Shown: positions 12,829 through 26,423 of the stretch, one piece after another
Layout of the letters: every line of letters starts with the position of its first letter
How positions within the stretch are numbered: the stretch's first letter is position 1
Assembly (NCBI GenBank): GCA_016842085.1
Contig: JAEVEX010000050.1
Coordinates: 1 to 35,752 of the forward strand
Reading direction: 5' to 3'
Source: Candidatus Thermoflexus tengchongensis
GTDB taxonomy: Bacteria; Chloroflexota; Anaerolineae; Thermoflexales; Thermoflexaceae
DNA: 35,752 bases
The notes under the pieces: generated by a model
Database searches by the model: none
Seen by the model: only the letters and a program-made list of their open reading frames with translations
Told to the model about the DNA's origin: nothing
Made by a program: the position numbers and the translations under genes

Positions 12829-13257
12829 TTAACGTCCTTGAGCTGTCGCCCCAAACGGAGGCCAGACCGCGGGAGGAGGCCCAGGGGGGCCGAAGTCGGT
12901 CTGGTGCGCTTGGCCCAGGTGGCCCTTATCCTGGACCAGCATGCCCGGCATCTCGCAATATCCGAGAATATAAGCGGAGCTTTCTCGAGCCAGAACAATG
13001 GCTTCGGATTCCCCCGGCCCAAGGTGAGCCTGAAGGAGCGTGGCTGCCCATGCATCTTGAATGGCCCGGCATTCAAGCCAGCCTGCGTCTGCTGCCGCCT
13101 CACATTCGGCACTGCCCGGCCTATCGGTGCCCTGAGCGACAACCTCTTGCCAGACGGCCATGGGGATGAGAATGTGATCAAACAGGTCATGGAGCAGTGC
13201 GAACTGACCAATGCGGGCGAGGGCAATGAGGGGGCTGGCATTGGAAACAGCGCTCAT
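12829..13257 (-). pseudogene. PIN-domain (DUF3368-like) toxin, C-terminal part apparently frameshifted
   Basis: The first ~90 residues look like a DUF3368/VapC-like PIN nuclease: SNASPLIALARIGQ with the first acidic-site region, VWQEVVAQG, and GPGESEAIVLARE. After that the expected segment with the conserved acidic pair (LxxDDxxARxxA) is missing and the tail becomes Gly/Pro-rich. Fragments resembling the lost part appear in the other minus-strand frames (for example SGLRLGRQLKDV around 12830-12860). This points to two or more frameshifts. The start overlaps the antitoxin stop by 4 bases (ATGA). It is probably inactive as a nuclease, unless sequencing error explains the shifts. Confidence 0.6.
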
Positions 13258-13547
13258 TCCCGCTGCTCCCGACGGCGGCGTCCCAGTTCTCGCGCCTCAC
13301 GCAATTCCCGCTCCAGTTCCTCATCCGTGTAGTCCGTCCAGACCACACCCTGTTCCCGGGTGAATTCCATGAAGTCGGCCAGGGACATATGGGCCAGTTG
13401 AGCGGCTTTGCCTGCGGAGATGCGTCGGGATTTGAAGAGGGCCAGGGCCAGCCAGCGCCCAGCTTCGGTTTCCAAATCCCGGCGGGACGCACGCAGGATC
13501 GAGAGCAAATCCTCAGGAACTTCGATCTCGAGCTTAACACCGGCCAT
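13254..13547 (-). CDS. UPF0175 family antitoxin
   Basis: This 97-residue protein is of the UPF0175 (COG2886) type, known as VapB-like antitoxins paired with DUF3368 PIN toxins. The N-terminus KLEIEVPEDLL is a beta strand and start of the dimer domain. The core SRRISAGKAAQLAHMSLADFMEFT is the family's helix-turn-helix-like signature, and the C-terminal charged helix would bind the toxin. The ATG at 13547 follows GGAGA. It overlaps the toxin start by 4 bases. The antitoxin reads intact while the toxin seems decayed. Confidence 0.85.
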   Translation of the reverse strand: MAGVKLEIEVPEDLLSILRASRRDLETEAGRWLALALFKSRRISAGKAAQLAHMSLADFMEFTREQGVVWTDYTDEELERELREARELGRRRREQRE

Positions 13548-13559
13548 GACATTCTCCTT

Positions 13560-13895
13560 ATGCTTGCTCAAGCGACAGCGAAAGTATCGCATGAATCCCC
13601 GTGGACGTCAAACATGCTTCCCGCCGGCCGATGGACGGGAGGGCCTGAGCGTAGTGCTCGGATGCTGCCGTCATTGGCCAAAGGCGTTTTTCGGCCGATG
13701 CTCTTCCCCGCCACCGTGTCTGGCGGCCTCGCCGGAGGCCGCGTGAGGTTGCAATCCCGTGCGATCTCGACCAATCCCTCCCCGATCCGGAGAGAGGCAA
13801 GGAGCGGCTTCAACCGATTCACCTCAAAAGCGCGCCAGCGGGAATGGGGGGGTCGGGATCCAGGCCACCTGGATCCTTGAGAAAGGGGATATGGC
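13560..13895. other. Gene-free region with two hairpins
   Basis: No convincing gene is found in the 413 bases between the antitoxin start and the DUF4190 gene; open frames on both strands lack ribosome binding sites and family character. The stretch holds a perfect 8-bp hairpin, GCGGCCTC/GAGGCCGC (13723-13742), and a perfect 9-bp one, GGATCCAGG/CCTGGATCC (13856-13876), just ahead of a promoter. It could be a decayed gene or a dispersed intergenic repeat; no second copy is in this window. Confidence 0.35.
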
Positions 13896-18172: not shown

Positions 18173-20549
18173 GATCCGACGGGTTCGCGTGGAGATCCAG
18201 GGCGCCGTGCAGGGGGTGGGATTCCGCCCCTATGTCTACCGGCTGGCCGCCGAACTCGGCCTCACCGGATGGGTCCTGAATGACTCCCGCGGGGTCTTCA
18301 TCGAGGCGGAAGGCCCCGTATCCCGGCTGGAACGCTTCCTGGAACGCCTCCCCCGCGAAACCCCTCCCCGGGCGCGTATCCTCTCCATTCAGGTGGACTG
18401 GCTGGACCCTGTCGGGTATTCCGGTTTTGAGATCCGCCACAGCGAAAGGGAGGGGGAGAAAACCGCCCTGGTTCTCCCCGACATCGCCACATGCGCCCGA
18501 TGCCTGGCGGAAATCCTGGATCCTGGGAACCGTCGATATCGCTATCCCTTCACGAACTGCACGGATTGCGGTCCTCGTTTCACCATCGTGGAGGCCCTCC
18601 CCTACGATCGGCCCAACACCACCATGCGCCGTTTCCGGATGTGCCCGGCATGCCAGGCCGAATACGAAAACCCGATGGATCGACGCTTCCACGCCCAGCC
18701 CAACGCGTGCCCGCAATGCGGCCCAACCCTGGCCTTCTACACCCGCGCATCCGCCCTGGCGGAGGAGGCTGGGGACCATCCGGATTTCCCGCAGCGTATC
18801 GGGGATTACTGGCGAACCGCGATGGGGGAGCGCGCGCTGCAGGAGGCGGCGAGGGCCCTGCGCGCGGGCCAGATCGTGGCGGTGAAAGGATTGGGCGGCT
18901 TCCACCTGATGGTGGACGCCCGGAATGAAGAAGCCATCGCCCGGCTGCGGGCGCGCAAACCCCGCCGGGATAAGCCCTTCGCCCTGATGGCCCGGGATCT
19001 CGACCAGATCCGCACCCTGTGCCACGTCCCCCCGGAAGCGGAAACCCTGCTCATCGGGCCGGAGGCACCCATCGTGCTCCTCCCCCGTCGGGCAGGCGCC
19101 CCGGTTGCATCGAATGTAGCACCCGATAATCCCTATCTGGGGGTGATGCTGCCCTATACGCCGCTTCACCATCTGCTGTTGCGGGAACTGGACTTCCCGG
19201 TGGTGGCCACCAGCGGGAACCTCACCGATGAACCGATCTGCACCGATGAGAACGAGGCCGCCCACCGGCTGGCCCGCGTGGCGGATGCCCTCCTGATCCA
19301 CAACCGGCCGATCGCCCGCCACGCGGATGACAGCGTGATGATCCTCATGGACGGCGAACCCCGCCTGCTGCGACGGGCCCGGGGCTTCGCGCCGCTGCCC
19401 ATCCTGGTGAACCGAAGGCTCCCCACCATCCTGGCCGTGGGGGGCCACCTGAAGAACACCATCGCCCTCAGCGTCGGGCGCCAGGTCTTCCTGAGCCAGC
19501 ACATCGGGGATCTGGATACGGCGGAGGCGCTGGCCGCCTTCGAGCGCGTGATCATGGATTTCCTCCGGCTATACGAGGCGGAGCCGGTGGCCATCGCCCA
19601 CGACCTGCATCCGGATTACGCCTCCACCATCTGGGCCCAGCGGGCGGCGGCCGGGGATCTTCCCCAGCCGCTGAGCGCGCGAACGCCCCTCCCCCTGATC
19701 CCGGTCCAGCATCACCACGCCCACCTGGTCGCGTGCCTGACGGATCATCACGTGGAAGGGCCTGCGCTGGGGGTCACCTGGGACGGCACGGGTTACGGCC
19801 TGGATGGGACGATCTGGGGTGGCGAGTTCCTGCTGGGGGATGCCAGTGGGTTCCAGCGGGTGGCCACCCTTCGGCCGTCTCGCCTGCCGGGAGGGGACGC
19901 GGCCGTCCACGCGCCATCCCGTGTGGCGTTCGCGCTGCTATGGGAGCTGGAGGGCCACACGATCATCGAATGGGAACACCTGGCCCCCATACGGGCCCTG
20001 CGGCCCATCGAGCGGCAGGCGCTGGCTCGCATGGTCGCGCGGGGGGTGAACGCGCCGCTCACCTCCAGCATGGGCCGGCTGTTCGACGCGGTCGCAGCGC
20101 TCCTGGATCTCCGCCAGGAGATCACCTTTGAGGGCCAGGCGGCCATGGCCCTGGAGTTCGCCGCTGATCCGTCGGAGACATACGCTTACCCATTCCCCCT
20201 CTGCGGAAATCCGAGGGCGGAAGGGCCTGCCTGGGTTCTGGATTGGGAGCCTCTCCTGAGGGCGATCCTGGAGGATCTGCGCCGTGGCGTCGCGCGGGAG
20301 AAGATCGCGGCCCGTTTCCACAACGCCCTGGTTCAGGCCATCGTTCGGGTGGCGCGGGAGATCGGGGAAAGCCAGGTTGCCCTCAGCGGCGGTTGCTTCC
20401 AGAACCGCCTGCTGACCGAGCGGGCCGCCCGGTCCCTGCGGGAAGCGGGCTTCACCGTCCTGATCCACCGCCAGATCCCCCCCAACGATGGGGGGATCAG
20501 CCTGGGCCAGATCCGGATCGCCGCCGCCCGTCTCGAGCGCGCTTCCTGA
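18162..20549 (+). CDS. hypF: Carbamoyltransferase HypF
   Basis: HypF moves a carbamoyl group from carbamoyl phosphate, through an adenylate, to the C-terminal cysteine of HypE as the source of the cyanide ligands. The 795-residue protein shows the full domain order: acylphosphatase (GAVQGVGFRP, about 14-23), paired zinc fingers (about 110-187: CARC, CTDCGPRFT, CPAC, CPQCG), a YrdC/Sua5-like domain (about 225-406) and a Kae1-like carbamoyltransferase domain (from about 423, with HHHAHLVACL near 517 and GVTWDGTGYG). It is slightly longer than typical (~750-770) through an insert after the zinc fingers. Translation is coupled to hypB. Confidence 0.95.
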   Translation: MGHEIRRVRVEIQGAVQGVGFRPYVYRLAAELGLTGWVLNDSRGVFIEAEGPVSRLERFLERLPRETPPRARILSIQVDWLDPVGYSGFEIRHSEREGEKTALVLPDIATCARCLAEILDPGNRRYRYPFTNCTDCGPRFTIVEALPYDRPNTTMRRFRMCPACQAEYENPMDRRFHAQPNACPQCGPTLAFYTRASALAEEAGDHPDFPQRIGDYWRTAMGERALQEAARALRAGQIVAVKGLGGFHLMVDARNEEAIARLRARKPRRDKPFALMARDLDQIRTLCHVPPEAETLLIGPEAPIVLLPRRAGAPVASNVAPDNPYLGVMLPYTPLHHLLLRELDFPVVATSGNLTDEPICTDENEAAHRLARVADALLIHNRPIARHADDSVMILMDGEPRLLRRARGFAPLPILVNRRLPTILAVGGHLKNTIALSVGRQVFLSQHIGDLDTAEALAAFERVIMDFLRLYEAEPVAIAHDLHPDYASTIWAQRAAAGDLPQPLSARTPLPLIPVQHHHAHLVACLTDHHVEGPALGVTWDGTGYGLDGTIWGGEFLLGDASGFQRVATLRPSRLPGGDAAVHAPSRVAFALLWELEGHTIIEWEHLAPIRALRPIERQALARMVARGVNAPLTSSMGRLFDAVAALLDLRQEITFEGQAAMALEFAADPSETYAYPFPLCGNPRAEGPAWVLDWEPLLRAILEDLRRGVAREKIAARFHNALVQAIVRVAREIGESQVALSGGCFQNRLLTERAARSLREAGFTVLIHRQIPPNDGGISLGQIRIAAARLERAS

Positions 20550-20569
20550 GATCGTTCAGGCATATAAAG

Positions 20570-20611
20570 GGCGAACGGATCGGTTGCATGTTATAAATGA
20601 GGCGGTTCGCC
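20570..20611. promoter_or_regulatory. Inverted repeat around an AT-rich box before hypC
   Basis: GGCGAAC (20570-20576) and GTTCGCC (20605-20611) flank a loop with TTATAAAT. The 101-base hypF-hypC gap is the only sizeable one within hypABFCD, so an internal promoter or RNA structure is possible. No -35 match was found. Confidence 0.25.
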
Positions 20612-20650
20612 TTCTCTGTTGAAAAGCCTGACTCAAGCAGGAGGCCCCAT

Positions 20651-20932
20651 ATGTGCCTCGGCGTTCCGGGGAAAGTGGTGGAAGTGAACGACATGACCGC
20701 CCTGGTGGACTTCTGGGGGGTCCGCAAGCCGGTGATGCTCCACACGGTCGACGAGCCGGTGGCCCCGGGGGATTACGTGCTGGTCCACGTGGGCTTCGCC
20801 ATCCGGCGCATTCCTCCCGAGGAAGTTGAGGAAACCCTGGCTTTCTACGAAGCCCTTCTGCGGGCAGCGGAAGAGGATCTGATGGCCGCGGAGGTGCAGA
20901 GTGAGATCCGCTCCCCGGAGGAGGCCCCATGA
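20651..20932 (+). CDS. hypC: Hydrogenase assembly chaperone HypC
   Basis: This 93-residue HypC/HupF-family chaperone carries the Fe(CN)2CO unit between HypD and the large subunit. The start motif MCLGVPGKV with essential Cys2 is present, as are the OB-fold-like strands and the segment APGDYVLVHVGFAI. The C-terminal helix is acidic and about ten residues longer than in small relatives. AGGAGG lies 8 bases before the ATG. Its stop overlaps the hypD start by 4 bases (ATGA). Confidence 0.95.
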   Translation: MCLGVPGKVVEVNDMTALVDFWGVRKPVMLHTVDEPVAPGDYVLVHVGFAIRRIPPEEVEETLAFYEALLRAAEEDLMAAEVQSEIRSPEEAP

Positions 20933-22092
20933 TCCCGGCGCGAACCCCCAAGCCTTCGGAGCGTCTGGAGTTCCGGGATCCGGAGCGGGTGCAGGCCTTC
21001 CGGCGCGCCCTGGAGCGGCTCTGCGCAGACCTCCAGCGGCCGATCTCCGTGATGCACGTCTGCGGCACCCATGAGCAGAGCATCGCCCGTTTCGGGCTGC
21101 GGAGCCTCCTGCCACCGAACCTCCAGGTCATTATGGGGCCGGGATGCCCGGTATGCGTGACCGACATGCCCGAAGTGGATGAGGCGGTTTATCTGGCCGA
21201 ACAGGGCGTGATCATCGCCACCTTCGGGGATATGTTCCGGGTCCCGGGGACCCTCAAATCGCTGGCGGAGGCCAAAGCGGAGGGCGCGGACGTGCGGGTG
21301 ATCTACAGCCCGTGGGAGGCCCTTCAGATCGCCCGGGAAACCGATCGAGAGGTGGTCTTCTTCGCCACCGGCTTCGAGACCACCGCGGTGGCCACGGCGG
21401 CCGTGATCCTCTCCAGACCGCCGAAAAATTTCTCGGTGCTATCCGCCCACAAGTATATCCCTCCCGTGATGGAAATCGTGGCCGAGATGCCCCGGACCCG
21501 GGTGCAGGGGTTCCTGGCCGCGGGCCACGCGGCGACCATCACCGGGTGGAAGGTCTTCGAGCGCTTCGTGGAACGCCATGGCATCCCGGTGGTGGTGGCG
21601 GGGTTCGAGCCCCTGGATATCCTGGGCGCCCTGGTGCAGCTCGTGGAATTGATCCGCCGGGGCGAGAAACGGGTGGTGAACGCCTATCCCCGCTGCGTGA
21701 CGCCGGAAGGCAACCGCAACGCCCAGCGGTTGCTGTGGGAGGTCTTTCAGACCGAAAGCGGGGTCTGGCGCGGCATCGCCTACGTTCCCAACGGGAACCT
21801 TCGCCTGCGCCCGAAATACCAGTGGGCAGACGCCCGGGCCCGTTTCGAGATCCGGCTTTCGGAATGGCTGCGGGATGCTCCGCCCCGCCTCACCCAGGAA
21901 TGCCTGTGCGGCAACATCATGGCCGGCATCGCCACCCCGTATGACTGCCGGCTCTTCGGCAAAGCGTGCACGCCGGAAACCCCGGTGGGCGCCTGTATGG
22001 TGAGCAGCGAGGGCGCGTGCCGGATCTGGTATGAATACGGGGGACATATCACAGGGCCTGAGGGGATGAAGGAGTTGGGGGGACAGGCTTGA
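20929..22092 (+). CDS. hypD: Hydrogenase maturation Fe-S protein HypD
   Basis: This 387-residue [4Fe-4S] scaffold is where the Fe(CN)2CO centre is assembled with HypC and HypE. Conserved residues include C45 in HVCGTHEQ, C73 and C76 in GPGCPVC, and the C-terminal cluster-binding cysteines in CLCGNIMAG, YDCRLFGKAC and GACMVSSEGAC. The length is normal. It follows hypC by a 4-base overlap. Immediately downstream the base composition changes and the cassette region begins, separating it from hypE by about 2 kb. Confidence 0.96.
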   Translation: MIPARTPKPSERLEFRDPERVQAFRRALERLCADLQRPISVMHVCGTHEQSIARFGLRSLLPPNLQVIMGPGCPVCVTDMPEVDEAVYLAEQGVIIATFGDMFRVPGTLKSLAEAKAEGADVRVIYSPWEALQIARETDREVVFFATGFETTAVATAAVILSRPPKNFSVLSAHKYIPPVMEIVAEMPRTRVQGFLAAGHAATITGWKVFERFVERHGIPVVVAGFEPLDILGALVQLVELIRRGEKRVVNAYPRCVTPEGNRNAQRLLWEVFQTESGVWRGIAYVPNGNLRLRPKYQWADARARFEIRLSEWLRDAPPRLTQECLCGNIMAGIATPYDCRLFGKACTPETPVGACMVSSEGACRIWYEYGGHITGPEGMKELGGQA

Positions 22093-22120
22093 CATGAGAG
22101 CTCTCCTCTGCTACAGTGCC

Positions 22121-22127
22121 GTTAGGT
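22121..22127 (+). other. attC core-like GTTAGGT (left border of the cassette region)
   Basis: GTTAGGT fits the integron core-site consensus GTTRRRY. It lies 28 bases after hypD and 36 bases before the TTG start of the truncated nucleotidyltransferase, the same spacing as between the next GTTAGGC (22294) and its gene. A 7-bp match alone is weak; the regular arrangement makes it worth noting. Confidence 0.4.
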
Positions 22128-22163
22128 TGCGCACATCCTGTGTGTTCCCCGCGAGGTGAAAGC

Positions 22164-22298
22164 TTGAACCGCGAGGAGAACATCACATTGCTTCGGAAAC
22201 ATTACGCCTATCTGGCTGCTGAGTATGGTGTCAAGAGGATAGGCCTTATAAGATTCCAGCTGGCTGGGAATTCCGGATTTCCCACAATCAATCGTTAG
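22164..22298 (+). pseudogene. Truncated nucleotidyltransferase (MNT-type) fragment
   Basis: The frame from the TTG at 22164 (GAGGTG upstream) encodes NREENITLLRKHYAYLAAEY followed by GVKRIGL, the opening of minimal nucleotidyltransferases, in which the family continues with FGSxARGE and the catalytic Asp pair. Here the frame switches to unrelated sequence and stops 44 codons in, with the TAG stop lying inside GTTAGGC at the border of the next cassette. So this is a beheaded antitoxin/nucleotidyltransferase (MNT/HEPN-type) remnant without its active site. The DNA is more AT-rich than the hyp genes. Confidence 0.55.
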
Positions 22299-22300
22299 GC
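22294..22300 (+). other. attC core-like GTTAGGC (cassette junction)
   Basis: GTTAGGC is a full match to the integron core site GTTRRRY. It marks the left boundary of the unit that contains the two small genes at 22337 and 22581 and ends in the attC-like hairpin at 22842-22909. The expected attC arm upstream of this junction is missing, consistent with the truncation of the preceding cassette. Confidence 0.5.
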
Positions 22301-22336
22301 AGCTATACTATATCCAGATATTGCTGGCAGTGATAG

Positions 22337-22567
22337 ATGAAAACGACAGCTTACTTCAGAACAAGTGTTATGGCTCGTCGGCCTTACCTTAAGATGGAAT
22401 GGATTGAGCACGTTCTAAAGAATCCTATTCGTACCGAAGTACAGCCCAACGGGCGCATCCGTTATTGGGGATATGTTGCCGAGATGGACAAGTATCTGCG
22501 GGTCGTGACGGAACCGGATGGGGAGACCGTGCATAACGCTTTTTTCGACCGTCGCTTTAAGCCTTGA
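22337..22567 (+). CDS. Small DUF4258-like protein, putative toxin partner of DUF2283
   Basis: This 76-residue basic protein (LKMEWIEHVLKNPIRTEVQ, then GRIRYWGYVAEMDKYLRVV, then AFFDRR) resembles the small proteins that sit before DUF2283 genes in cyanobacteria and Chloroflexota and are RelE/DUF4258-like in outline. The pairing suggests a toxin-antitoxin module, which is inference. The ATG at 22337 lacks a strong ribosome binding site; an ATG at 22370 is an alternative. The stop is 13 bases before the DUF2283 ATG. The codons are AT-richer than the neighbouring hyp genes, a sign of transfer. Confidence 0.75.
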   Translation: MKTTAYFRTSVMARRPYLKMEWIEHVLKNPIRTEVQPNGRIRYWGYVAEMDKYLRVVTEPDGETVHNAFFDRRFKP

Positions 22568-22580
22568 AGGGGAGAAGACA

Positions 22581-22817
22581 ATGGTTTTCGAATATCATCC
22601 TGAGACCGACATGTTGTATATCAAATTGATTGATGGAGTAAGTACTGAGTCGGAGGAGATCGCCCCAGGGATTGTGCTGGACTTTGATGAACACAATCGT
22701 GTTATAGGGATTGAGATTGAGGATGCCAGCAAGATCATTGATCTATCGAAATTGGAGTTGAGGGCTCTTCCCGTTGTTCATTTGATCCTGACGGAAAGGA
22801 CTTCTGTGAAGGCATGA
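22581..22817 (+). CDS. DUF2283 domain-containing protein, putative antitoxin partner
   Basis: This 78-residue protein begins VFEYHPETDMLYIKL and continues with EEIAPGIVLDFDEHNRVIGIE and IEDASKI, the DUF2283 pattern. GGGGAG stands 7 bases before the ATG at 22581. It is acidic while its upstream partner is basic, in keeping with a complex-forming pair. Both genes lie between a GTTAGGC core site and an attC-like hairpin 24 bases after this stop, as a two-gene integron cassette would. Confidence 0.85.
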   Translation: MVFEYHPETDMLYIKLIDGVSTESEEIAPGIVLDFDEHNRVIGIEIEDASKIIDLSKLELRALPVVHLILTERTSVKA

Positions 22818-22841
22818 AGCGCTGGATGTAACCTCCAGAGG

Positions 22842-22909
22842 CTGCCCAGCCCGCCGCTGCAGCCGACGCCGCCTTCGGCGGCGCGGCGGAGTTCGGGGGC
22901 ATTGGGCGG
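22842..22909 (+). repeat. attC-like recombination site (integron cassette end)
   Basis: An imperfect palindrome shows the nested attC architecture: outer arms GCCCAGC (22844-22850) and ATTGGGC (22901-22907), middle arms CCGCCGC (22851-22857) and GCGGCGG (22883-22889), and an inner hairpin. The inner part AGCCGACGCCGCC / GGCGGCGCGGC (22861-22887) is nearly identical to that of the aadA-type attC, including the unpaired A at 22866 that marks the recombinogenic strand. The right core is ATTGGGC rather than GTTRRRY, so it may be decayed. No integrase gene is in the window. Confidence 0.65.
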
Positions 22910-23206
22910 CACAATCGTACAACGGGGCTGAGGAACGATTCCACAGGTATCCCCGCTGCCCGGCATGGCTCTCCTGTAGTATCATCCCTTCCAGATCCGC
23001 AAGGGGATGGCCATGGGAACCCGGAAGGGACATGGCGCTCTACTCTCAGGGATCCCGGCGATCTGTATCCTTATGATGGAGCACGGATTTTGATCCCCAT
23101 GGGACCCTGCGGGCCATGGGAAGAGCGGAGAGATCCAGAACATCCGGAAGGTCCCCAGGAGGGAGCGTCCAGCCCTATCATTCCCGAAAAATCCGGAGAG
23201 CGCCCC
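22910..23206. other. Gap between the attC-like site and the crotonase gene
   Basis: About 300 bases hold no gene I can support. An open frame continues upstream from the crotonase (to 23090) but has no family character. Several ATG codons occur without ribosome binding sites. It may be residue of a lost cassette or of the original hypD-to-hypE spacer. Confidence 0.35.
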
Positions 23207-24061
23207 ATGGAACCCGTCATCATCGAACTCTATCACATTCGAATGCAGCGAAAAGAGGCGATCGGGATCATCCAGCTCGACCGGCCGGATCGCTTCAATG
23301 CCCTGGATGTCGCGATGGCTCGGGATCTCCGGAAGGCCGCCCTTCAATTCGCCCGCGACCCGGAGGTCCGCTGTGTGATCCTCACCGGAACCGACCGGGT
23401 TTTCTGCAGCGGGGCGGATCTGAAATATGTTCGAGAGCGGGAGCATCCAGAGGACTTCTCATATTTGCAGCCGGAGGCCCGCGAGATCGAGGGGGGCTAT
23501 GGGCGCAGCTTCAAGGAGATCCTGGAATACCTGCACAGCACGATCTCCGAGATCCGGCGCGCGCCCAAACCGTTCATCGCGGCGGTCAAGGGGGTGGCCG
23601 CCGCCGGGGGCCTGGGCCTGGCCATGGCCTGCGATCTGGTCTTCGCCTCCGATCGGGCCAGCTTCGAGTGGGCTTATTCCAAGACCAGCCTCACCGGGGC
23701 GGAGAGCACCACCTTCATCCTCCCCCGCCTTATCGGCCTGCGGCGGACCATGGAGCTGGTCTTTCTGAATCCGCGCCTCAGCGCCCAGCAGGCCCTGGAG
23801 TGGGGCCTCATCAACGGGATCTTTCCTTTCGAGACCTTCGATCAGGAGGTGGAGGCCATCGCCCACCGTCTGGCGCGCGGGCCCACCCGGGCGTGGGCGA
23901 TCACCAAGGCCCTTATCAACGAGGCGCTGGGGATCGATCGTCTGGATCCCCATATGGCGAAAGAGCTGCGGTGTCTCGTGGAGATCGCCGAGACGCCGGA
24001 TTTCGCAGAAGGCCTGGCCGCTTTCTTTGAAAAGCGGGAACCTCATTTCCGGGGAGCGTAA
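23207..24061 (+). CDS. Enoyl-CoA hydratase/isomerase (crotonase) family protein
   Basis: This 284-residue crotonase-fold protein has the CoA-binding and oxyanion-hole signature: VFCSGADLKYV and, about residue 130, AVKGVAAAGGLGLAMACDL. The later motif TTFILPRLIGLRRTMELVF and the C-terminal helices also fit. At the positions of the two catalytic glutamates of enoyl-CoA hydratase my alignment gives non-acidic residues; an E in TGAESTT lies close by. It may therefore act as an isomerase or another crotonase activity. The ATG at 23207 has GGAGAG 8 bases upstream. It ends 5 bases before hypE, so the two are co-translated, an unusual partner for a maturation gene. Confidence 0.88.
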   Translation: MEPVIIELYHIRMQRKEAIGIIQLDRPDRFNALDVAMARDLRKAALQFARDPEVRCVILTGTDRVFCSGADLKYVREREHPEDFSYLQPEAREIEGGYGRSFKEILEYLHSTISEIRRAPKPFIAAVKGVAAAGGLGLAMACDLVFASDRASFEWAYSKTSLTGAESTTFILPRLIGLRRTMELVFLNPRLSAQQALEWGLINGIFPFETFDQEVEAIAHRLARGPTRAWAITKALINEALGIDRLDPHMAKELRCLVEIAETPDFAEGLAAFFEKREPHFRGA

Positions 24062-24066
24062 AACCC

Positions 24067-25119
24067 ATGGCGACCACAGAGAGCCTGGGGGCCTGTCCCA
24101 TCCCGCCCCTTTCTTATCGCACCGTGCTGCTGGGGCACGGCAGCGGGGGACGGCTGATGCACGAGCTGATCGAGAAAGTGTTCCGCCCCCTCCTCCTGCC
24201 GCCCGAAACCCGGGTGTTGAACGACGCCGCCGTCCTGAACATAAACGGATTGCGCCTCGCCTTCACCACCGACGCCTTCGTGGTGGATCCCATTGTGTTC
24301 CCCGGTGGGGATATCGGCCGGCTGGCGGTGAACGGGACCATCAACGATCTGGCCGTCAGCGGGGCCCGACCGCTCTTCCTGAGCGCAGCTTTTATCCTGG
24401 AGGAAGGATTGCCGATCGATACGCTGTGCCAGATCGTGGACTCCATGCGCCGGGCCGCTGAGGAGGCAGGGGTTCCTATCGTCACCGGGGACACCAAGGT
24501 GGTGAATCGGGGGAAGGCGGACAAGATGTTCATCACCACCACGGGCATCGGGGTGGTGGAATACGAGGGGACGCTGTCGGCCGATCAGGCGCGGCCCGGG
24601 GATCTGGTGCTGCTGAACGGGCCGATCGCGGCCCACGGCATCGCGGTGATGCTGGCCCGCGAGCAGATCGAATTTGAGCAACCCGTTCGCTCCGATACCG
24701 CCCCGCTCCACACACTGGTAGCCGCCATGCTCCGGGCCAGCCCCCGCATCCGCTGCATGCGCGATGCGACCCGGGGCGGCCTGGCCAGCGCCTTGAACGA
24801 AATCGCGATGAGCTCCCGGGTGGGCATCCATCTTTATGAGGATCGCATCCCGATCCAGGATGAGGTAAAAGGCGCCTGCGAGATCCTGGGCCTGGATCCC
24901 CTCCACGTGGCCAACGAGGGGAAGCTCATCGCCATCGTCGCCCGGGAGGATGGGGAACGGGTGCTGGAGGCCATGCGCGCCCACCCCCTGGGCCAGGAGG
25001 CGGCCATCATCGGAGAGGTAGTCGAGGATCCCCGACACCTCGTCCTCCTCCGCACCCGGGTCGGCGGCTTCCGGGTGGTCAGTATGCTGGCCGGCGAACA
25101 GCTCCCCCGGATCTGCTGA
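24067..25119 (+). CDS. hypE: Hydrogenase maturation protein HypE
   Basis: HypE dehydrates the carbamoyl group placed by HypF on its C-terminal cysteine to make the thiocyanate from which HypD takes cyanide. The 350-residue protein ends in PRIC with that Cys as the very last residue. It has the PurM/AIR-synthase-like motifs GHGSGGRLM, VLNDAAVLN, NGTINDLAVSGARPLFLS, TGDTKVVNRG and RDATRGGLASALNE. It starts 5 bases after the crotonase stop, with GGGGAG inside the end of that gene as ribosome binding site. It is separated from hypABFCD by the cassette region. Confidence 0.96.
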   Translation: MATTESLGACPIPPLSYRTVLLGHGSGGRLMHELIEKVFRPLLLPPETRVLNDAAVLNINGLRLAFTTDAFVVDPIVFPGGDIGRLAVNGTINDLAVSGARPLFLSAAFILEEGLPIDTLCQIVDSMRRAAEEAGVPIVTGDTKVVNRGKADKMFITTTGIGVVEYEGTLSADQARPGDLVLLNGPIAAHGIAVMLAREQIEFEQPVRSDTAPLHTLVAAMLRASPRIRCMRDATRGGLASALNEIAMSSRVGIHLYEDRIPIQDEVKGACEILGLDPLHVANEGKLIAIVAREDGERVLEAMRAHPLGQEAAIIGEVVEDPRHLVLLRTRVGGFRVVSMLAGEQLPRIC

Positions 25120-25130
25120 GCCCGGACCGG

Positions 25131-25150
25131 ATTGTGAATAATATCACAAT
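25131..25150 (+). promoter_or_regulatory. CRP/FNR-family binding site upstream of the hydrogenase operon
   Basis: ATTGTGA (25131-25137) and TCACAAT (25144-25150) are perfect 7-bp arms around 6 bases, matching the TGTGA-N6-TCACA pattern of CRP-type regulators (an FNR site would favour TTGAT). It lies 11 bases after hypE and 122 bases before the hydrogenase beta subunit. A possible -10, CATAAT at 25194-25199, would place the centre about 65 bases upstream of the start, a position compatible with class I activation. Confidence 0.7.
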
Positions 25151-25271
25151 ATAGGATGCCCGACTCTCACTGGCATGGTTGCTTCGCATAAAACATAATG
25201 GAGAGTGAAACCGCTCGCCCGAGCGCGCTTCTGGAACGAGGCCCGGTTCCCCGCTGAAGGGAGGAAACGCG

Positions 25272-26423
25272 ATGGCCGATCCCGAGGTTCGGATCCCCGC
25301 CCCCGGCTCCCTCTGGCGAATGGAGAAGGCGCAGCTGCAGACCCTGCTGGAGGCCCTCGCGCAGCAGGGCTACACGATCATCGGCCCGCGGATCCAGGAG
25401 GGGGCCATTGTCTACGATGAAATCCGTCAGATCTCGGATCTCCCCATCGGATGGACGGACGAACAGGATGGGGGCTACTACCGTCTGAAACGCCGGGAGG
25501 ATGAGGCCTTCTTCGGGTATGCGGTGGGCCCGCATTCCTGGAAGCGATTCCTCCATCCCCCCGTGTTCTCCCTGGGCCAGGCCCGCCGCAACGGCCAGGG
25601 CTTCGAATGGATCCCGCCCGCGGATCCTCCGCCGCGCTATGCGTTTCTGGGCGTTCGGGCCTGCGAGCTCCACGCCATCGCCATCCTGGATCGGGTGTTC
25701 ATGGGTGGCCCGTATGTGGACCCGGTTTATCGGGCCCGCCGCGAGGCGCTCTTCCTGATCGCCGTCCAGTGCACCACCGCCGGCGGAACCTGCTTCTGCG
25801 CCTCTATGGGCACCGGCCCCAAAGCCCCGCCCGGCGCCGATCTGATCCTCACGGAGCTTCCAGATGCCTTTGTGGTCGAGATCGGGACCGAACGCGGAGC
25901 GGCTCTTATGGCGGGGGTTCCCTGCACGCCCGCCACGGAAGCCGATCGCGCGGCGGTCGAAGCCCGTCTGGAAGAGACGGCCCGCTCTATGGGTCGACAG
26001 CTGGACACCGCCGATCTCCCCGCCCTGCTCTACCGCAATCTGGAGCATCCCCGCTGGGAGGAGGTCGCCCAGCGCTGCCTGACCTGCGGAAACTGCACCA
26101 TGGTCTGCCCCACCTGTTTCTGCTTCACCATCGAGGATCTCAGCGATCTGGCCGGAACCCGGGCGGAGCGGGTGCGCCGCTGGGATTCCTGCTTCACCAC
26201 CGCCTTCACCTACACCGCCGGGCACCCGATCCGCCAGAGCGCGAAGGCCCGCTATCGCCAGTGGCTGACCCACAAGCTGGCCTCCTGGTGGGATCAATTC
26301 GGAACCTCCGGCTGCGTGGGTTGCGGGCGCTGCATTACGTGGTGCCCGGTGGGCATTGACCTGACGGAGGAAGTCCGGGCGATCCGGGAAACGGACGGAG
26401 CCATGGCCAGCGAGAGGAGGTGA
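25272..26423 (+). CDS. hydB: Group 3b [NiFe] hydrogenase beta subunit (4Fe-4S protein, HydB-like)
   Basis: This electron-transfer subunit links the hydrogenase module to the flavin subunit, as in the sulfhydrogenase HydBGDA. It has 383 residues. The N-terminal part includes [18 protein letters not shown] and [12 protein letters not shown], typical of the HydB/Asr beta family. Two ferredoxin-type clusters follow: [16 protein letters not shown] (about 269-284) and [16 protein letters not shown] (about 348-363). GGAGG lies 8 bases before the ATG. It is the first gene of the structural operon and is followed after 4 bases by the cyclic-nucleotide-binding gene. Confidence 0.92.

Follow-up and report, generated by a model that had tools for sequence, protein, structure and literature searches.

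Among described systems, the closest counterparts of the element examined here are cassettes with short attCs of the aadA type (class 1 integrons, e.g., aadA1 of plasmid R100), in which the gene is followed by an attC of 60 to 64 bp, the 5' core is of the GTTAGGC type, and the inner stem (CAGCCGAC...GCGGCT type) carries an extrahelical A. Integron integrases (IntI) also insert cassettes at secondary, non-attI sites, leaving one flanking site (PMC2426708); insertion at attG sites has been attributed to Loot et al. 2024 as cited in PMC12901181, and off-target activity of integron integrases is on record (PMC10127599). In CALINs such as those of Xanthomonas, which have at least two attCs, DNA with attCs occupies constant positions on the chromosome apart from intI and is shared between species (PMC12444791). 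With regard to cargo, DUF4258 (PF14076) is a toxin family of the RelE/ParE superfamily (BECR fold) whose target is unknown (PMC11980606).

We analyzed one contig of 35,752 nucleotides (hereafter the window; contig C31 of a 100-contig assembly) from Candidatus Thermoflexus tengchongensis (Chloroflexota, Anaerolineae). An insert downstream of hypD shares with aadA-type cassettes the attC length, the inner stem, the order of gene and attC, and the 5' core, but differs from them in that R'' and R' both deviate at a single conserved position, in that neither attI nor an array adjoins it, and in that its cargo is a probable toxin-antitoxin pair rather than a resistance gene. With attG or other secondary-site insertions (PMC12901181 citing Loot et al. 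2024; PMC2426708) it shares a single chromosomal cassette with one attC outside attI; the attG work, as cited, is experimental, whereas the insert would be a case from nature, old and already decayed, in a genus of thermophilic Chloroflexota, in which the empty site was not seen. The first-pass annotation had called the insert a CALIN-type cluster in a phylum where cassettes are little described. The CALIN label was not supported: the locus has a lone attC where IntegronFinder 2 by default asks for at least two (PMC9024848). Integrons have been on record in Chloroflexi since 2008 (PMC2426708); our literature search returned no paper joining integron, CALIN, and Chloroflexi. Nor is this a complete integron with intI, attI, and attC, since the locus lacks intI and the array found elsewhere in the genome, on contig C15, has a frameshifted one.

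The insert and its hairpin

The gene order is hypF, hypC, hypD, the insert, an enoyl-CoA hydratase family gene, and hypE (Table 1), so that the insert does lie in the hydrogenase maturation cluster as first annotated, but the hydratase gene separates it from hypE. The protein encoded by hypD is 97% identical to those of T. japonica HRbin22 and T. sinensis and 90 to 96% identical to those of other relatives, which places the genome in Thermoflexus. As had been noticed, the insert is richer in AT, with GC content falling from ~0.66 to 0.46 to 0.53 across 22000-22900. Neither a transposase nor flanking repeats were found in it. A second version of 20189-25583, 96% identical, is present on contig C24 (L031), which probably stems from another strain in the bin; it lacks 400 bp (22068-22467), a deletion that enters the end of hypD. 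Cassette excision was rejected as the origin of this difference because positions 22068 and 22467 do not lie on cores. Elsewhere in the window, two small genes at 12829-13592 on the minus strand resemble, by eye, a toxin-antitoxin pair of the UPF0175/DUF3368 type.

Table 1. Features of the hypD-hypE region, in window coordinates
Feature	Position	Strand	Basis or remark
hypD, upstream neighbor	20929..22092	+	TIGR00075, 443.8 bits
Sigma-70-like promoter (candidate), TTGACA-N17-TACAGT	22089..22117	+	Sequence; overlaps hypD stop; outside cassette
GTTAGGT, chance core, no cassette boundary	22121..22127	+	GTCAGGT in relatives
Remnant ORF, outside cassette	22164..22298	+	No Pfam or PDB match; segment confined to Thermoflexus at hypD locus
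GTTAGGC core, cassette 5' boundary, crossover G/TT between 22294 and 22295	22294..22300	+	Start of homology with G117 array copy
ORF2, 76 aa, DUF4258-like, predicted BECR (RelE/BrnT)-type toxin fold	22337..22567	+	Homologues, structure model
DUF2283 gene, putative ORF2 partner	22581..22817	+	PF10049, 66.1 bits; 3' of ORF2 in nearly all loci
Degenerate attC; R'' GCCCAGC 22844-22850, R' ATTGGGC 22901-22907	22844..22907	+	R1 37.6 bits; alignment
Noncassette spacer	22908..23192		Partly conserved in occupied relatives, missing in empty congeners
Enoyl-CoA hydratase family gene, downstream neighbor	23207..24061	+	Annotation of locus
hypE	24067..25119	+	TIGR02124, 457.4 bits

The hairpin reported at the 3' end of the insert is real: the folding energy of its bottom strand is -26.1 kcal/mol (z -2.3), and it begins 24 nt past the DUF2283 stop codon (22815-22817). 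An Rfam search of 22000-23250 returned chance matches alone and no attC family, and we therefore built our own covariance model (R1) from 13 attCs, 5 of plasmid resistance integrons and 8 of Anaerolineae integrons, leaving the window and its orthologues out of the training set. The sole R1 match within the window coincides with the hairpin on the plus strand, 26 nt after the DUF2283 stop, in agreement with the proposed order of gene and attC. Genome-wide, it has an E-value of 3.3e-5, to be read as rough like all R1 E-values, and is one of twelve R1 matches. Orthologous sites score 36.8 bits in T. japonica and 29.7 bits in the C24 copy. When 100 related genomes were searched as a control at an E-value of 0.01, 47 gave no R1 match, and three of these belong to congeners.

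Two alignments, one of them to R1, place paired L boxes and an extrahelical base in the window site, and the annotated resemblance of its inner stem to the aadA attC, with the single unpaired A, was confirmed. Over the inner 28 nt, the window site does not differ from an attC of another family (G050) whose contig also has an intact intI. Both R'' and R' have one mismatch to the consensus (RYYYAAC and GTTRRRY, respectively). R'' reads GCCCAAC, the exact consensus, in T. japonica and in the copy of G117 (below). Since R' has ATT in T. japonica and C24 as well as in the window, loss of the crossover triplet probably predates their split. Since we took an exact R''/R' consensus as the requirement for an active site, we class the window element among decayed rather than active cassettes; the hairpin is a degenerate attC.

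A search for similar hairpins in the genome, which had been proposed as a check, returned two sites on C15 that are 80 to 84% like the window hairpin; the only near-identical copy is that of the second version of the locus on C24. A dispersed REP-like repeat was dropped from consideration because the similar hairpins sit in an array beside intI.

Cassette limits and cargo

Two GTTRRRY cores, GTTAGGT at 22121 and GTTAGGC at 22294, had been taken as core sites, each 36 bases ahead of a small gene, the first of these genes being the ORF at 22164-22298. Both heptamers are present, but as the window has 24 GTTRRRY motifs on its two strands, cores alone carry little weight. Every relative outside the species that retains the stretch reads GTCAGG at 22121, making the GTTAGG of the window a substitution and not a conserved site, while the core at 22294 is conserved in three relatives' loci (L047, L128, and L129). 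A reading with two cassettes, beginning at 22121 and 22294, was accordingly rejected on the relatives' sequence at 22121 and on the absence of a second attC.

The limits of the cassette are fixed by a copy in another family of Anaerolineae. ORF2 has homologues at 97% amino acid identity in two other families, and in one of them (G117, contig C140) ORF2 and DUF2283 are flanked by two attCs that score 55.1 and 58.1 bits. Homology between the G117 and window DNA covers 22292-22889 at 87% identity and ends inside the attC. Upstream of TCG/TTAGGC, identity drops to 11 of 57 positions, which is chance level. This limit is the position of IntI crossover and sets the cassette start at 22295, and the position of R' sets its end at 22901. 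There is thus a single cassette, about 22295-22901, and not two; it has two genes, with ORF2 and the DUF2283 gene as its members, but the ORF at 22164-22298 is excluded. Pfam and PDB searches with the latter gave no match; tentatively, it may possibly be the N-terminus of a nucleotidyltransferase-type protein. The promoter-like stretch at 22089-22117 is also kept in T. japonica and in L047, L128, and L129, and could drive the cassette from outside.

Further copies of the pair vary in their surroundings. In G024 it has an attC of 38.2 bits. What follows it in G171 is attC-like but weak (9.9 bits) and of another sequence, an indication that attCs of more than one type have been packaged with the pair. 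On plasmids of Rhodothermus marinus (L292 and L293), from another phylum, ORF2 is 87% identical and is adjoined by DUF2283 and nucleotidyltransferase genes, and no attC was detectable at these copies. These attC-less plasmid pairs, the mutated core triplets, a fold z-score of no more than -2.3, and the commonness of GC-rich hairpins in such genomes would fit a hairpin that is no attC but a terminator, a dispersed repeat, or a GC-rich palindrome due to chance, next to a gene pair gained by horizontal transfer. We nevertheless hold this to be extremely improbable, given that R1 matches the site although the window was absent from its training, that the site shares sequence identity with intI-linked attCs, that the boundary is sharp at the core, and that the G117 array contains the same cassette with intact attCs. 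The insert is integron-derived DNA, a true but decayed cassette.

ORF2 has an invariant W, a DGxTVHNAF motif, and a DR.F motif. Its structure model (pLDDT 96) comprises two helices and four strands. Matches by Foldseek alone were not significant, and in a second-look structural alignment the ten best neighbors were all toxins, including a Salmonella toxin-antitoxin complex (Z 7.9) and BrnT (Z 7.1), values that are modest in being below 8, as well as CdiA tRNases, colicin D, RelE, and YafQ. DUF4258 matches weakly in 6 of 26 ORF2 homologues, below the Pfam gathering score. A fold search with DUF2283 gave nothing significant. The pair resembles DUF4258/BECR toxin modules (PMC11980606) in its small two-gene layout, its predicted fold, and the best structural neighbors of ORF2; it differs from them in that ORF2 stays below the Pfam gathering score, its neighbor is a DUF2283 gene, and its toxicity is a prediction. 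ORF2 and DUF2283 likely form a toxin-antitoxin pair, putatively of type II.

Occupied and empty loci and the arrival of the cassette

Comparison of the hypD-hypE junction among relatives, likewise proposed as a check, showed that the insert is absent from several congeners and so is not conserved throughout. In T. sinensis, SKYG36, and G003, hypD and the hydratase gene are separated by a short spacer that lacks the insert. T. japonica has the cassette and its attC behind a different 5' segment; L047, L128, and L129 have the 5' segment, the GTTAGGC core, and the genes, and the attC is absent. In the hypD tree, occupied genomes do not form one clade and are interleaved with empty ones, making an old insertion with later losses, or recombinational exchange, likely. 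The exact empty site, with the flanks joined as CAATCG/TTGGGC, was not found in any genome compared, and upstream of 22294 there is no second attC (best score, 8.9 bits with filters off).

With one flanking attC alone and nothing above 9 bits upstream, the best fit is that the cassette entered at an attG-like site other than attI. We consider it likely that 22295-22901 is a single cassette put outside an array by an integron integrase in an ancestral Thermoflexus and since decayed and fixed. The folded bottom strand of the attC would have been cut by IntI at G/TT, and the circular cassette would have joined a chromosomal site that needs a GTT-like core only (attC x attG), here between hypD and the enoyl-CoA hydratase-hypE genes. 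Re-excision of such a product with a single attC would be inefficient. Decay would then have turned the GTT of R' into ATT, the state of every copy retaining the attC, and the AAC of R'' into AGC in the window lineage; with intI becoming a pseudogene here and being deleted in the T. japonica-like genome, the cassette would have become fixed, and its toxin-antitoxin-like nature would favor its retention. The cassette is probably immobile. Several points weigh against insertion by IntI: the empty site was not seen, the attC-less copies in L047, L128, and L129 diverge at R'', which is not an IntI-type break, an upstream attC may have been lost, the lack of clean clades of occupied and empty genomes requires losses or recombination, and the assembly has no intact IntI.

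Because the exact empty site was not found, erosion of something larger has to be weighed, namely of a longer cassette array or whole integron at the hypD-hydratase locus from which deletions left one cassette and one attC. The flanks 22059-22293 and 22908-23192 are missing from the empty congeners as well, deletions at the locus are frequent (C24 is an example), and at a locus on contig C67 the T. japonica-like genome has several attCs and the present genome one. We still regard this as unlikely, since the hypD locus has no trace of intI or of a second attC, the promoter directly abuts hypD, none of the occupied Thermoflexus genomes has more than one attC there, and Thermoflexus has its integron platform at another place (C15 in the present genome, G000; C4 in G008). 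That the pair was moved by homologous recombination or another mobile element, its cassette form being a relic of the donor array, would suit the interleaving in the hypD tree but finds neither transposase nor flanking repeats in the insert and leaves the coincidence of the homology limit with the IntI crossover point; this seems to us quite improbable. Insertion of a single cassette by IntI is our preferred reading.

Integron remnants in Thermoflexus and other Anaerolineae

The first-pass annotation saw no integrase, which is correct for the window but not for the genome, where a decayed intI and an array are found on C15. In this chromosomal integron, at C15:17556-21088 (L032), five attCs, two of them very similar to the window attC, lie beside an intI that matches TIGR02249 at 297 bits (cutoff, 265) and is frameshifted: the first frame stops after RSGVVRRHHCGSR, homology resumes in another frame, and a further shift follows. 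The stretch past FLYGSGLRL is presumably lost. No intact IntI was found in the assembly. Cassettes of this array include an SgcJ-like gene and a pair that we read as DUF433 and PIN-like. The same array is present on contig C4 of the T. japonica-like G008, with intI deleted. A further genome, G001, does not differ from the window at the hypD locus; it contains a fragment of intI along with other attC arrays.

Among 100 Anaerolineae relatives, 53 had attC-model matches but only 25 an intI above the cutoff, and it seems common in the class for attCs to occur where no intact intI does. The lone attCs on contigs C48 and C67 occupy sites that vary among congeners, and the C67 site is the one that is an array in G008, so that single insertion and array erosion may both operate in Thermoflexus. 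Because lone attCs are spread over many genomes that now lack intI, Anaerolineae may perhaps gain genes regularly, over the long term, by off-array insertion of single cassettes, with toxin-antitoxin cassettes outlasting the integron, a suggestion we offer tentatively and with some doubt.

What makes the locus of interest is the base-level evidence for the crossover, together with the broader occurrence of lone attCs across Anaerolineae. In a natural case, one cassette can be traced between two families, in an array in the first and at a fixed position within a core operon in the second. This suggests that counting intI alone, or clusters of at least two attCs, overlooks part of the effect of integrons on genomes. 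The sulfonamide resistance gene sul4, found in the company of integron integrases, is proposed to have had its first host among Chloroflexota (PMC12772301), and the cassette traffic of the phylum thus merits mapping.

The other R1 matches away from intI in the present genome are at C48:10149, C67:47521, C48:103279, C48:105593, C33:3833, and C12:46898; the attCs at C48:10149 and on C67 adjoin small toxin-antitoxin-like genes. Also on C67, the segment L207:1067-1196 contains a repeat of ~120 bp with more than 10 genomic copies, possibly a miniature mobile element.
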